Below are positions 5,587 through 13,870 of a stretch of 64,000 bases of DNA, piece after piece. The stretch's first letter is position 1. Each line of letters begins with the position of its first letter. Location: assembly GCF_019443405.1 (NCBI RefSeq), contig NZ_CP080376.1, positions 2,542,001 through 2,606,000 on the forward strand, in the 5' to 3' direction. Source of the stretch: Brevundimonas sp. PAMC22021 (GTDB lineage Bacteria > Pseudomonadota > Alphaproteobacteria > Caulobacterales > Caulobacteraceae). The notes under the pieces are model-generated. The model saw only the letters and a program-made list of their open reading frames with translations. It ran no database searches and was not told the DNA's origin. The position numbers and the translations under genes were made by a program.

Positions 5587-6747
5587 TCAAAGCTGGGCGC
5601 AGGCGGCGATCAGGCGCTCGACGTCATCCGCGTCTTGATAAAGGCCGAAGCCGAAGCGGATCACATCGTCGCGCACGTCGGTGACGATGTCGCGGGCCAA
5701 GAGCGCCTCGCGCCAGCGCGCCGCCTCCGGATGGCGCAGCGCCAGGAAGCGCGCGCGCGCGCCCTCCCCATCGAGCGGATTGAGCAGGGCCGCCTGCGAC
5801 AAGGGACCGGCTTGGCCGTCCGCCGCCGCGTCCTGGAACAAACGCATCAGGGTGCGGGCGTGGTCCGCGACCGCAGCCGTATCCAGCCCTCGTTCCGCCA
5901 GCATCCTGCGCGCTGCGTTGAAGCGATACAGCGCCGAACAATCAAACGTCGCGCCCCAGAAGCGACCGCCGTCGCTGCGGTACTGGACCCCGCCTGGCGG
6001 CCCCGACAGGTCGCCGAACTCCGCGAACCAGCCGGTGATCGCCGGACGCGGGCAGAAGCCGTCCGGCGCATGCAGGAAGCAGGCCCCCTCTCCCGCCATG
6101 GCGTATTTGTATCCGCCTGCGGTGTAGAACACCCGATCCGCCACGCGCGACAGGTCGGTCGGCGTCGCCATGAAGCCGTGGTAGCCGTCGATCAACACCC
6201 AGGGCCCTTCCGGCCGCGCCAGCTCCGCCAGCGCCTCGAACCGATCGAACACCTGACCGGTGCGGAAAAAGACGTGGCTCGCCACGATCCAGTCGTAGGC
6301 GCCCTGTTCGGCCGCTGCGAGGAACCGCTCGCTGAAAGTGCCGAACGGCTCCAGCGGCACGCGCGTGACCACCGCCTCGCCCGTTTCGATCCAGCGATCC
6401 GCCTGGCGGCGGAACGAGTGAAACTCGCCGTCCGTGGACAGGATACGGACCGGCCGGCGCTCGAACCCGGAGAAGATGCGCAGCAGAAAATCGTGGGTGT
6501 TGGACGAGAACACCACGCTGTCCGGCGAAGGCAGGTTCAGCTCGCGCGCGACATGCCCCTGAGCCTCCGGGATCACCTGTCCGAACACCAGGTCCCACTT
6601 GCGATCCGCATGGGCGTTCGCGTCGATCCACGCCTGCTGCTGCGCCTCGAAGCTCGCATCGGGCCACAGATGATGGCTGTGCGCGGCGAAATGCAGCCGG
6701 TCCGGCGCAAGCGACAGGGCGCGAGAGAACAGGGGCTTGAACGTCAT
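5587..6747 (-). CDS. Aminotransferase class V-fold PLP-dependent enzyme (kynureninase-like)
   Basis: A 386-residue fold-type I PLP enzyme. The cofactor lysine is K214 in AGGYKYAMAGEG; D187 and H190 (LIDGYHG) form the usual pyridine and phosphate contacts, and SSNTHDF near 81-87 is the small-domain PLP loop. The overall pattern resembles the kynureninase/cysteine-desulfurase class, but no kyn genes are nearby, so the substrate is open. Its ATG overlaps the stop codon of the ParE-like toxin gene by 4 bases, so it is probably the third gene of the parD-parE transcript. Confidence 0.75.
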   Translation of the reverse strand: MTFKPLFSRALSLAPDRLHFAAHSHHLWPDASFEAQQQAWIDANAHADRKWDLVFGQVIPEAQGHVARELNLPSPDSVVFSSNTHDFLLRIFSGFERRPVRILSTDGEFHSFRRQADRWIETGEAVVTRVPLEPFGTFSERFLAAAEQGAYDWIVASHVFFRTGQVFDRFEALAELARPEGPWVLIDGYHGFMATPTDLSRVADRVFYTAGGYKYAMAGEGACFLHAPDGFCPRPAITGWFAEFGDLSGPPGGVQYRSDGGRFWGATFDCSALYRFNAARRMLAERGLDTAAVADHARTLMRLFQDAAADGQAGPLSQAALLNPLDGEGARARFLALRHPEAARWREALLARDIVTDVRDDVIRFGFGLYQDADDVERLIAACAQL

Positions 6748-7043
6748 CTTCGCACCAGATCGAACAACACCGCATCATGCGCACGCGATCCATGTACGAT
6801 CGCAAGGATGCGAAGTTCGGCAGGCAGAACGGCGTAATAGATGTTGCAGGACCCATGGACCGCACGCCGGATGCGCGCGTCGAAGCTGGCGCTTGGATGG
6901 ATCAACGGAGACGCGCTCAACTCCAACGCCGCTTGACGAAGCTCCGCGACGAAACTGCGTGCTCTTCGCGGGTTGTCCTTGGAAATGTGGTCGGCGATAT
7001 CTTCCAGGTCGCGGGCGCTCCCCAAGGAGAAGACGACCTTCAT
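6744..7043 (-). CDS. parE: ParE/RelE-superfamily toxin
   Basis: A 99-residue toxin of the ParE/RelE fold: N-terminal MKVVFSLGSARDLEDIADHI helix, then NPRRARSFVAELRQ, a central R-R-x-V-H-G-x-CNIYYAV strand pair and a C-terminal LAIVHGSRAHDAVLF strand. ParE toxins usually poison DNA gyrase, whereas RelE relatives cut mRNA; the sequence favours ParE without proving the target. The start overlaps the antitoxin stop by 4 bases (ATGA) and its own stop overlaps the next gene's start in the same way. Confidence 0.82.
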   Translation of the reverse strand: MKVVFSLGSARDLEDIADHISKDNPRRARSFVAELRQAALELSASPLIHPSASFDARIRRAVHGSCNIYYAVLPAELRILAIVHGSRAHDAVLFDLVRR

Positions 7044-7321
7044 TCTCCCCGCTCTTGAGCGTCGATCATCGCCTGGTACTTCGCTTCAAGGCGTGTGAAG
7101 ACCACGTCAGCGTCTATCCCGGCGCCATCCAGTCCGGCCGAGAGACGACGTTTCAAGGCACTCGCCTCAGGATCTTCGGCGCCACGGCCGATGAGCCAGT
7201 GATGCACGGCCTCAGTCAGTGCGTCTCCAGTCGAGGCGAACTCTCCCGACGAGACGGCGGAACGGAGGCCGTCAGCGATCTCCGCCGACGCCTCGAAGGT
7301 GATGCGCTCAGGCTTGCCCAT
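7040..7321 (-). CDS. parD: ParD-like antitoxin
   Basis: A 93-residue antitoxin with an N-terminal ribbon-helix-helix-like segment (ITFEASAEIADGLRSAVSSGEFASTGDALTEAVHHWL), typical of CopG/ParD DNA-binding domains. The C-terminal half (LKRRLSAGLDGAGIDADVVFTRLEAKY) would wrap the toxin. The ATG at 7321 has a strong AAAGGAGG site; an upstream frame from 7369 lacks one. Such antitoxins usually repress their own promoter, which would lie in 7322-7396. It is first in a three-gene overlapping set with the toxin and the PLP enzyme. Confidence 0.82.
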   Translation of the reverse strand: MGKPERITFEASAEIADGLRSAVSSGEFASTGDALTEAVHHWLIGRGAEDPEASALKRRLSAGLDGAGIDADVVFTRLEAKYQAMIDAQERGE

Positions 7322-10491: not shown

Positions 10492-11385
10492 ATGAGCCCC
10501 ATCCGGCGAACTCCCGGTCCCATCGTGATCCTGCTCGCCGCCAGCCTGGCGATGTCGGCCTGTGGGCGCGGCGGCGGCGATCGTGCGCCGGAGCCGAACG
10601 ATCGCGCCGTGGCCGCCGTGCAGGGCCAGACCATCTGGGCCTCGGACGTCAAGCGCGAGGCGGTGGCGCAGGGGCTGATCGGCGAAGGCGAGACTCTGGA
10701 CGTCACCTCCGACCTGTTCCGCCGGGTGCTGGACGAGGTCATCGACCAGAAGCTGCTGGCGCGCGAGGCCGAGCGCCGCAAGCTGGACGACTCGCCGCTG
10801 GCCGAGCGACGGCTCGAGGCCACGCGCGAGCGTATCCTGGGGGACATGCTGGTCGAGACGGTGGTCAACGGCGCCGTGTCCGAGAAGGCCGTCGAGACCC
10901 TCTACAACGAGCAGCTCAGGCTGGCGAAGAGCTCCGAAGAAGTGCGGGTGCGCCTGATCCTGTCGCGCACAAAGCCGGAGGCCGACGCGGTGCTGGGCAT
11001 CCTGGGCCAGGGCGCAGCGTTCGAGGCGGTGGCCAGCGAGCGGTCAGTTGACGAGGCGACGCGCTTTTCCGGCGGCGACCTCGGCTATTCCACACTGGAC
11101 GTGATGCCCCAGGCCTATGCCGATGCACTGCGCGACCGGCCCGCCGGATCGGTCGTCGGGCCGTTCCAGACGGAGGGCGGCTGGGCGGTGCTGCGGGTCG
11201 AGGATCGCCGGCGCGAGACGCCGCCGACGCTGGAACAGGCGCGCCCGCAGATCGTCCGCTATCTGACCTATGAAGGCGTGCGCCAATTGCTGGAGCAGTT
11301 GCGGGGCAAGGCCGAGGTCGATGTGATGCTTCCCGCCGACACGCCCGTCACGCCCCGTCCGGGCGCCTCCGCGCCGGCGGCATGA
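10492..11385 (+). CDS. PpiC-type peptidyl-prolyl isomerase lipoprotein (SurA/PrsA-like)
   Basis: A 297-residue periplasmic foldase. The signal peptide ends in a lipobox at C24 (LAMSAC). Residues 35-140 form the helical SurA-N-like domain, and a rotamase domain covers about 148-240 (RVRLILSRTKPEAD, GGDLGYSTLDVMPQAYADAL, GPFQTEGGWAVLRV). It probably helps outer-membrane protein folding. It lies back to back with secA, and its stop overlaps the argJ start by 4 bases. Confidence 0.88.
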   Translation: MSPIRRTPGPIVILLAASLAMSACGRGGGDRAPEPNDRAVAAVQGQTIWASDVKREAVAQGLIGEGETLDVTSDLFRRVLDEVIDQKLLAREAERRKLDDSPLAERRLEATRERILGDMLVETVVNGAVSEKAVETLYNEQLRLAKSSEEVRVRLILSRTKPEADAVLGILGQGAAFEAVASERSVDEATRFSGGDLGYSTLDVMPQAYADALRDRPAGSVVGPFQTEGGWAVLRVEDRRRETPPTLEQARPQIVRYLTYEGVRQLLEQLRGKAEVDVMLPADTPVTPRPGASAPAA

Positions 11386-12782
11386 TCATGAGCAAGCCCC
11401 CCTCCAGGACCGTCTCTACCGGCCACAAGATCGAACAGGCGCTTGAGAAGGCGCTGGATCCGCTGGCGTCGGCGCTGAAGCGCGCCACACGCACGTCCGG
11501 CGGAGCCGCCGCAACGCCGGAAGCCGCGCCGGCGGGAAAGCCCGGCCTCAAGGTCTCGCCTTTGGCCGTGCCGTTCCCGGCCATTCCGCCCATCGGAGGC
11601 GTAGAGATCGCGACGACCCGCGCCGGCTTCTACAAGCATGAGCGCGACGATCTGGTGGTGTTCCGCTTCGCCGAGGACACCAACTGCGCCGGCGTCCTGA
11701 CCCGGCACAAGGTGGGGTCGGCCCCGGTGGACTGGTGCCGTCGGCGTCTGGAGGCGGCGGACGGCGGCAAGGGCGTGCGCGCCCTGGTGGTCAACGCGGG
11801 ATGCGCCAACGCCTTTACCGGCAAGCAGGGCGCCGACGCGGCCCGGCGCACGGCCTCCGAGGTCGCCAAGCGGTTCGGCTGTCGCCAGCGCGACGTGATG
11901 CTCGCCTCGACCGGCGTGATCGGCGTGGTGCTGGACGACGGCAAGATAGCCGCGCGGTTGCCGCAGATCACCGCTTCGCTCCACGCCGACAACTGGGCGG
12001 CGGCCGGTCGCGGCATCATGACCACCGACACCTTCCCCAAGGGCGCCTACGCCGAGGCCGAGATCGAGGGGCATACGGTCCGCATCGCCGGGATCGCCAA
12101 GGGCTCGGGCATGATCGCGCCCGACATGGCGACCATGCTGGCCTTTATCGTCACCGACGCCTGCATCGCGCCGCCGGTCCTGAAGGCGCTGCTGGGCTTG
12201 CATGTGCGGACCACCTTCAACTCGGTGACGGTGGACGGCGACACCTCCACCAATGACGCCTGTCTGATGTTCGCCACCGGCGCATCCGGCGCGCCGCGCA
12301 TCGGCCGCGTCGGCGACCGACGGCTGAAGGATTTCTCGGCCGCGCTCGACCGCGTCATGCTGGACCTAGCGCACCAGCTGGTGCGCGACGGCGAGGGCGC
12401 CACCAAGTTCGTGCGGGTCCAGGTGGACGGCGCCGCCTCTCCCGCCTCGGCCCGCAAGCTCGCCAAGTCAATCGCCGACAGCCCTCTGGTCAAAACCGCC
12501 ATCGCCGGCGAGGACGCCAACTGGGGCCGGGTGGTCATGGCGGTCGGGAAAACCGAAGAGCCGGTGGACCGCGACCGTCTCGCCATCCGCTTCGGCCCCC
12601 ACGTCGCGGCGATCGACGGCGCGCCCGCCGCCGACTACGACGAGGCGACCATGAGCGCCTACATGAAGAACGCCGAGATCGACATCAGCGTGGACGTCGG
12701 CTCCGGCCGCGCCTCCGCCACCGTCTGGACCTGCGATCTCACCAAGGGCTACATCGAAATCAACGGCGACTATCGCAGCTGA
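11382..12782 (+). CDS. argJ: Bifunctional glutamate N-acetyltransferase / amino-acid acetyltransferase ArgJ
   Basis: A 466-residue ornithine acetyltransferase that recycles the acetyl group in arginine synthesis. The self-cleavage and nucleophile motif is KGSGMIAPDMAT, with T251 as the new N-terminal nucleophile of the beta chain. The family C-terminus (TCDLTKGYIEINGDYRS) is intact. About 55 extra residues, low in complexity, precede the conserved core. Two start codons lie in ATGATCATG (11382 or 11388). The gene overlaps the isomerase gene upstream and its stop touches the E5-RNase start downstream. Confidence 0.95.
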   Translation: MIMSKPPSRTVSTGHKIEQALEKALDPLASALKRATRTSGGAAATPEAAPAGKPGLKVSPLAVPFPAIPPIGGVEIATTRAGFYKHERDDLVVFRFAEDTNCAGVLTRHKVGSAPVDWCRRRLEAADGGKGVRALVVNAGCANAFTGKQGADAARRTASEVAKRFGCRQRDVMLASTGVIGVVLDDGKIAARLPQITASLHADNWAAAGRGIMTTDTFPKGAYAEAEIEGHTVRIAGIAKGSGMIAPDMATMLAFIVTDACIAPPVLKALLGLHVRTTFNSVTVDGDTSTNDACLMFATGASGAPRIGRVGDRRLKDFSAALDRVMLDLAHQLVRDGEGATKFVRVQVDGAASPASARKLAKSIADSPLVKTAIAGEDANWGRVVMAVGKTEEPVDRDRLAIRFGPHVAAIDGAPAADYDEATMSAYMKNAEIDISVDVGSGRASATVWTCDLTKGYIEINGDYRS

Positions 12783-13006
12783 TGGTCAAGTCGTCCGAGA
12801 AGCTGGCGCGCCAGATGGCGGCCCGCGGCTGGACGATGGCGCAGGTCGAGGAGGCGGTGGAGCGTGGGCTCAGGCACGCCGCCGTCCGTCGCGAGACAAA
12901 CAGCCCGGCCACGCGTTATGTTCATCCACAAACAGGGCGTTCGGTCGTGATTGACGACAGGTCCGGAGAGATCATTCATGTCGGCGGTGACGGCTTCATC
13001 TATTGA
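12782..13006 (+). CDS. Colicin E5-type ribonuclease domain protein (putative anticodon nuclease toxin)
   Basis: A 74-residue free-standing domain. Compared from memory with the colicin E5 RNase domain, K7-L-A-R-Q11-M-A-A-R15-G-W17 aligns with that enzyme's K-I-R-G-Q-M-P-E-R-G-W, including the lysine, glutamine and arginine implicated in catalysis. NSPATRYVHP and VVIDDRSGEI match its NDPAT and VVVNDRTGEV. Colicin E5 cuts the anticodons of queuosine-type tRNAs (Tyr, His, Asn, Asp). The loop between the two blocks is shorter here, so activity is not certain. It starts one base inside the argJ stop and overlaps the next gene by 29 bases. Confidence 0.78.
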   Translation: MVKSSEKLARQMAARGWTMAQVEEAVERGLRHAAVRRETNSPATRYVHPQTGRSVVIDDRSGEIIHVGGDGFIY

Positions 13007-13262
13007 ATGGATCGACATCCACGTTCGTCTTCTCGACGAGGCCGTCGACGTCTGGCGGCCTGTTCCCGCTCGCTCGATCAGCGAGCATGTGTACCGTTTG
13101 GCCAGCACACCCGCGCCGCTTGACGAGACCTGGGCCTTCCGACCCGGTGAGGAGGTCGTGGTCGAGCACCGGCTGACGGACGGACGGGACGTCATGGTCG
13201 CTGTGGCCCGCGCCGTGGACGTGGACGAGCGGTCCCGCTCCTGGCTCAGGAAGGCGGGGTGA
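12978..13262 (+). CDS. Small acidic protein, possible antitoxin of the E5-like RNase
   Basis: A 94-residue protein. The ATG at 12978 has GGAG ten bases before it and lies inside the RNase gene, giving a 29-base overlap that implies coupled expression. The core (HVRLLDEAVDVWRPVPARSI, then LDETWAFRPGEEVVVEHRL) resembles a widespread family of about 80-residue uncharacterised proteins. It has no DNA-binding motif and no similarity that I can see to the colicin E5 immunity protein. The antitoxin role is inferred from position and size only. Its stop overlaps the mutT GTG start. Confidence 0.6.
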   Translation: MSAVTASSIEWIDIHVRLLDEAVDVWRPVPARSISEHVYRLASTPAPLDETWAFRPGEEVVVEHRLTDGRDVMVAVARAVDVDERSRSWLRKAG

Positions 13263-13669
13263 CCGCGCCGTTGAAGACTGTCTTCGTCGTCGCCGTCGCC
13301 CTGATCGACCCCGACGGACGGGTGCTGATCGCGCAACGGCCCGAGGGCAAGCCGTTGGCCGGCCTTTGGGAGTTTCCTGGCGGCAAGGTCGAGGCGGGCG
13401 AGCGGCCGGAACAGGCTCTGATCCGTGAGCTGAAGGAAGAGCTCGGCATCGACGTCAATGAAGCGTGTCTCGCGCCGTTCGTTTTCGCCAGCCACGCTTA
13501 CGATTCGTTTCACCTGTTCATGCCATTGTACCTGTGCCGGCGCTGGTCCGGCGTGGTCGTCGCGCGCGAGCACGCCGGCCTGGCCTGGGTGAAGCCGAAC
13601 CGATTGTCGGACTATCCCATGCCTCCGGCCGACGAACCCCTGGTCGCCTGGCTGCGCGACTTGCTCTGA
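13259..13669 (+). CDS. mutT: 8-oxo-dGTP diphosphatase MutT (Nudix)
   Basis: A 136-residue Nudix hydrolase. The complete Nudix box G-x5-E-x7-R-E-L-K-E-E-L-G-I runs from residue 42 to 64. The preceding LAGLWEFPGG and the following LFMPLYLCRRW fit MutT, which removes oxidised guanine nucleotides and prevents A:T to C:G mutations. The start is GTG, overlapping the previous stop (GTGA). In Caulobacterales mutT commonly follows argJ; here two extra small genes lie between them. Confidence 0.88.
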   Translation: MTAPLKTVFVVAVALIDPDGRVLIAQRPEGKPLAGLWEFPGGKVEAGERPEQALIRELKEELGIDVNEACLAPFVFASHAYDSFHLFMPLYLCRRWSGVVVAREHAGLAWVKPNRLSDYPMPPADEPLVAWLRDLL

Positions 13670-13693: not shown

Positions 13694-13870
13694 ATGCGAC
13701 GACCATCGCTTTCCATCCTCAGACGGCTGACGCGCGACCGGAAGGGCGCCACGGCCATGGAGTACGGCCTGATCGTCGCTCTGATCTCCATCGCCATCGT
13801 GGCCGCTCTCGGCGGGATCGGCTCCAAGATCGGCGCCGCACTGATCCGGCTCGCGGAGGCCCTCGGCTAG
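13694..13870 (+). CDS. Flp/Fap-type pilin subunit
   Basis: A 58-residue type IVb pilin precursor. A basic 18-residue leader ends in KG18, followed by A-T-A-M-E23-Y24 and a hydrophobic helix (GLIVALISIAIVAAL). The glutamate at mature position 5 and the adjacent tyrosine are the Flp signature for prepilin peptidase. A strong AAGGAGGG site lies 5 bases before the ATG. No tad assembly genes adjoin it; TadE/TadG-like genes lie 30 kb away, so it may be an extra pilin or a competence-type one. Confidence 0.88.
   Translation: MRRPSLSILRRLTRDRKGATAMEYGLIVALISIAIVAALGGIGSKIGAALIRLAEALG

Follow-up and report, generated by a model that had tools for sequence, protein, structure and literature searches.

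A standalone colicin E5-type ribonuclease and its partner gene as a putative chromosomal toxin-antitoxin module in the argJ-mutT slot of Brevundimonas

In Brevundimonas sp. PAMC22021, two small genes lie between argJ and a mutT-type gene, within a stretch of 64,000 nucleotides that was analysed as a whole and is referred to here as the window. The features of this locus, in window coordinates, are as follows.

11382..12782, forward strand: argJ, the upstream border of the slot (PF01960, TIGR00120, PRK05388)
12782..13006, forward strand: standalone colicin E5-type RNase domain of 74 amino acids, a putative toxin (PF12106 match)
12965..12970, forward strand: GGAGAG, the likely ribosome-binding stretch of the partner gene, inside the RNase gene (from the sequence)
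12978..13006, forward strand: 29-nt overlap in which the last RNase codons (HVGGDGFIY) serve as the first partner codons in another frame (from the sequence)
12978..13262, forward strand: partner gene of 94 amino acids, a putative immunity protein or antitoxin (motif V.LL.EG..V.RP......W.F.PG)
13259..13669, forward strand: mutT-type Nudix gene, the downstream border of the slot (PF14815 and PF00293 over cut-off)

Because the RNase gene starts where argJ stops and itself contains the likely ribosome-binding stretch of its partner, the two proteins would be produced together, probably by coupled translation; constitutive expression with arginine synthesis, as proposed in the earlier note, is likewise something that we infer from the gene overlaps. 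The mutT-type gene scores 93.8 bits against the MutT equivalog TIGR00586, below the cut-off of 97.9, and is followed immediately on its 3' side by a frame for a 58-residue protein that resembles a Flp pilin by eye (13694-13870, forward strand). Elsewhere in the window, a ParE-type toxin gene (6744-7043) and an antitoxin-like gene (7040 to about 7321) form a pair on the reverse strand (6744-7321), right behind secA and 5.7 kb from the E5 pair; PF05016 has four matches in the source genome, this ParE-type gene included.

The first gene of the pair encodes a member of a known ribonuclease family. The PF12106 (Colicin_E5) profile matches the 74-residue protein at 39.4 bits, against a curated cut-off of 25, and matches 36 of its 38 aligned relatives at E 1e-3. 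A fold test places the protein in the colicin E5-like BECR fold, which agrees with the assignment made in the earlier note, and the source annotation already carries the name 'colicin E5-related ribonuclease' (P0029, P0030). Residues 7, 11 and 15, singled out previously as a K/Q/R pattern, correspond to K25, Q29 and R33 of colicin E5 (an offset of 18, taken from structure chain ranges); we take Q29, the counterpart of residue 11, to belong alongside K25 and R33. The pattern is borne out by the 38-row alignment, where K occupies position 7 in 26 rows and R in 7 (33 rows with either), Q occupies position 11 in 33, and R occupies position 15 in 37. The catalytic K25 and R33, which form the acid-base pair of colicin E5 according to the accessible text of PMC9990079, are present as K7 and R15.

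Inspection of the same alignment revealed that A25, A43, T51, R53, S54 and V55 are invariant, with H48, H66 and D70 nearly so. The most strongly conserved blocks, ATRYxHPxTGRSVV and HVGGDGF, are both just partly present in colicin E5, and for this reason target specificity cannot be carried over from that toxin; tRNA cut sites are also described as differing between members of the colicin D/E5 clan (PMC9990079, accessible text). Because a gene of the TGT family occurs in the source genome, queuosine tRNAs may exist there, which carries no implication for the identity of the target. Judged by the domains that define a colicin, the protein stands alone, as had been claimed: its 74 residues comprise the RNase domain, with no receptor-binding or translocation domain. 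The pair is under purifying selection, with dN/dS below 1 in every pair computed.

The 94-residue partner has no match in Pfam, NCBIfam or PADLOC, and no DNA-binding family was found by Pfam or NCBIfam in it or in other members of its family. Its AF2 model (pLDDT 80.1) is mostly beta with a C-terminal helix. Three candidate identities were rejected. A PreAtp-grasp match, at best E 0.0036 among 29 members, was dismissed as chance. PDB profile matches to designed propellers reached E 8e-14 and were read as repeat effects, because nearly none of them gives a single stretch that passes alone. ImmE5 (PF11480), whose profile was in the library, was absent among the matches of the 29 members at E 1 with HMMER filters on; run over the source genome, this profile gave no match and the control likewise matched nowhere, and no ImmE5 chain appeared among the structure matches listed for the partner, which may still adopt an ImmE5 fold. 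Similarity at the very start of the partner is not independent, since its first codons are the last codons of the RNase in another frame; the partner motif given above lies outside this overlap, and the identical 29-nt overlap recurs in all seven pairs of the genus and in a remnant in genome G091. We consider the partner a small candidate immunity-protein family of its own, new within the searches made.

Viewed from the RNase side, the two genes are closely linked. A scan of genome contigs yielded 25 RNase loci (four of them also counted below as genus genomes G017, G063, G095 and G148), at which the partner was sought with a profile built from six partner sequences only. The partner lies downstream in 24, adjoining the RNase in 23 and about 570 nt away in L028, indicating that the second gene proposed in the earlier note is real; the remaining locus, L029, is cut off by the end of its contig. 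The four that are also counted as genus genomes are the Brevundimonas or Caulobacteraceae loci among the 25, and the titles of linked loci name Proteobacteria, Planctomycetes, Bacteroidota and Thermoanaerobaculia. Within the genus, the RNase occurs in 7 of 131 genomes, each time with the partner, so that none of the 131 carries an RNase alone, and the partner occurs in eight, namely these seven and G091. In G091 the frame that follows argJ encodes a partner of 87 residues (counted from its ATG), a little short of the length of its relatives, and only the last 13 codons of the RNase are recognisable. The RNase has thus been lost and the partner kept, which points toward neutralisation by the partner. 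An inverted-repeat stretch (L202) occupies the expected position of the RNase gene upstream of the G091 partner; repeats of this kind may be involved in gene loss, and the core of this one is absent from the window at up to two mismatches.

Outside the genus the linkage is less uniform. The RNase was found in none of 24 genomes from other families of Caulobacterales (single-sequence search) and in one Hyphomonadaceae MAG (L012), so the Caulobacterales-wide scope of the survey suggested in the earlier note is too broad. In a class sample of 385 genomes the partner matched in 11, the source genome and ten others; an E5 domain lies directly upstream in three of the ten (G353, G202, G333) and in none of the other seven, so the partner family is also found alone. 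Among these seven, G326 and G424 have their match at a contig end and G225 is a weak match (E 7.5e-5), leaving four clear cases (G193, G195, the stop-interrupted G294, and G503). At L211 and L212 the partner domain is doubled within one 150-residue protein at a contig end, the form present in G326 and G424. Conservation of the pair of the kind expected for type II toxin-antitoxin systems is thus evident from the RNase side (24/25 loci and 7/7 genus carriers). As for a partner found mostly without its RNase, which the earlier note had named as evidence against its proposal, this is not the case in the genus, where seven of eight are paired and the eighth retains a remnant, and is partly the case in the class sample, where three of ten are paired.

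The junction between argJ and mutT could be read in 127 of the 131 genus genomes, 103 of which have the two genes linked. They abut or overlap in 79 (-7 to +29 nt) and are separated by an insert in 24: four E5 pairs, 16 two-gene ParE-type modules and four others (two genes of 73-76 residues, one of 103 and one of 263). In the ParE-type modules (L036, L037, L045, L053, L068, L077, L086, L090, L127, L136, L140, L155, L160, L163, L166 and L175) an antitoxin-like gene comes first and a ParE-type gene second. A PF05016 scan of 12 of the 16 ParE-type proteins, those of G088, G126, G133 and G137 being left out, placed ten over the cut-off of 23 bits and two below it (20.8 and 17.8); the antitoxin-like proteins gave sub-cut-off PaaA2/ParD matches or none in three Pfam and two NCBIfam scans. 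By eye, the 16 modules fall into at least four sequence types, and some may share insertions. In L085 (G029) and L147 (G106) a gene of 73-76 residues occupies the slot alone, the G029 protein having no Pfam match at E 0.1 and no NCBIfam match; FkbM was suggested for the 263-residue insert by eye, with no family search behind it. The junction on the upstream side of argJ served as a control: it is filled in none of the 56 loci that show the upstream gene, a 297-residue gene labelled prsA by eye, and spans no more than 144 nt with unaligned ends counted; seven further loci, too short or showing no upstream gene, were left out.

The RNase and partner lie behind argJ in six of the seven carrier genomes, followed by mutT in G000, G017, G071 and G095 and by a convergent rlmN-like gene in G063 and G115. 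In G148 the pair has no argJ next to it and sits beside a convergent rlmN-like gene (a label given by eye in G063, G091, G115 and G148). In a tree built from argJ and mutT, the slot states are scattered and slightly clustered (22 changes against a shuffled mean of 23.7, a value as low being reached in 10 of 200 shuffles), and the four slot copies of the E5 pair fall in four separate places; this tree is weakly resolved, 46 of its 99 inner branches being open, and the locus may have recombined. The same address behind argJ is therefore empty in some relatives and holds a ParE-type module, an E5 pair or occasionally another gene in others.

We propose that the E5 pair probably consists of the warhead of a polymorphic toxin and the corresponding immunity gene, which together would act as a toxin-antitoxin module on the chromosome, at a site where such modules dock repeatedly, so that a part of a weapon may have been turned into an internal system. 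The 74-residue protein would be a cytoplasmic, colicin E5-like ribonuclease with the BECR fold, stopping translation by cutting RNA, most likely in tRNA anticodon loops, and the 94-residue protein would bind and neutralise it. Toxin-antitoxin modules would be gained and lost behind argJ within the genus, presumably to the benefit of the host or of the module itself. Purifying selection, the lack of any genus RNase without its partner, and the one partner that outlived its RNase fit what a toxin-antidote module predicts, and the occupation of the same slot by ParE-type modules in relatives makes the toxin-antitoxin reading of the earlier note stronger than it was. Several observations weigh against such a module. 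No DNA-binding family was found in the partner, whose gene follows that of the toxin, in contrast to the ParE-type modules at this slot, although both features suit an immunity protein, which need not act as an unstable antitoxin. Class-sample partners mostly lack an upstream E5 domain (seven of ten, four of them clear), and not all of the 24 linked loci have an intact RNase frame: those of L028, L031 and L032 are incomplete and that of L030 is degenerate. The slot has also taken four inserts that are not of the toxin-antitoxin pair kind, the division into ParE types was made by eye, and the slot tree is weak with slightly clustered states.

An alternative that we judge unlikely is that the genes are an orphan warhead-immunity cassette: the C-terminal part of a polymorphic toxin, displaced and retained as spare material or as a store of immunity that can recombine with the gene of a secreted toxin, and not a toxin-antitoxin system in itself. 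Longer open frames that end in the RNase domain do exist elsewhere (1447, 537, 430, 382, 376, 333 and 280 residues, measured stop to stop and in some cases cut by the locus end), and in L017 (1447 residues), L025 (537) and L021 (376) the domain closes the frame with the partner also present. The RHS context of these far loci comprises one Pfam match below cut-off, to the L021 frame, and a loose motif search. G353 (L206/L216) carries, in tandem, a long protein that ends in E5, a partner, a 36-residue frame holding an E5 remnant, and another partner; toxin cassettes that stand alone near polymorphic toxins have been described (PMC3482391, accessible text). Against an orphan cassette, the source genome has no match to RHS repeats, the one carrier family searched, the pair resides in a housekeeping operon and is under purifying selection, and the slot is otherwise mostly occupied by ParE-type modules.

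Still less probable is an anti-phage module in which infection frees the RNase through loss or titration of the partner and tRNA cutting aborts the infection. Host defences that target tRNA have been described (PMC10264068, accessible text) and turnover at the slot would fit defence genes, but PADLOC returned no match to a known defence family, and defence would describe how the module is used, leaving its anatomy the same. Origin from a phage or plasmid was rejected: the RNase has no match in plasmid or phage records and none was confirmed in viral contigs, and the partner has no match in plasmids. It is very improbable that the protein is a domesticated RNase that processes host RNA in tRNA regulation or quality control, tied to arginine synthesis with the partner as regulator, since its operon position, its overlaps with argJ and mutT and the queuosine tRNAs that may exist are set against a patchy occurrence (7/131 genomes, with slot copies in four tree places), a slot that is empty or otherwise filled in relatives, and a G148 copy located elsewhere without argJ.

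We also advance a broader proposal tentatively, at slightly under even chances: the 3' end of Brevundimonas argJ would be a standing toxin-antitoxin dock, where a warhead and immunity family replaces ParE-type modules, and parts of inter-bacterial weapons could trade places with intra-genomic addiction modules at a single location, in step with expression of an amino-acid operon. The locus would offer a natural case of a colicin-type warhead as an internal module at a classical toxin-antitoxin address, making exchange between both worlds directly testable, and it points to a candidate immunity-protein family and a repeatedly used docking site inside a housekeeping operon.

Much of what makes up this system is already known: the domain and its fold, its use as a polymorphic-toxin warhead, standalone cassettes, domains common to polymorphic toxins and toxin-antitoxin systems, and the name of the RNase. 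Colicin E5 domains are listed among polymorphic toxins with ImmE5 as partner, in beta- and gamma-proteobacteria and firmicutes, and some domains are held in common with toxin-antitoxin systems (PMC3482391, accessible text). We found no description of the argJ-mutT slot or of a standalone E5 toxin-antitoxin pair in the accessible text of the openly licensed literature; within the searches made, the standalone E5 pair as a putative chromosomal module, the partner family, and a slot common with ParE-type modules appear to be new. Compared with colicin E5 (PF12106) and ImmE5 (PF11480), the pair is chromosomal, in argJ-mutT, and lacks a receptor or translocation domain; its RNase has the additional conserved ATRYxHPxTGRS and HVGGDGF blocks, and its partner has no match to the ImmE5 profile. 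The polymorphic toxins of the colicin D/E5 clan (CDI, Rhs) resemble it in the order of toxin then partner, and in other phyla the RNase domain and partner end long open frames; the E5 pair differs in that the delivery part is wholly absent. With type II modules such as ParDE and RelBE it has in common two small overlapping genes, one of them toxic by homology, and a slot that holds ParE-type modules in 16 relatives, whereas it differs in placing the toxin gene first, in a partner for which no DNA-binding family was found, and in a toxin of the E5 type instead of ParE.
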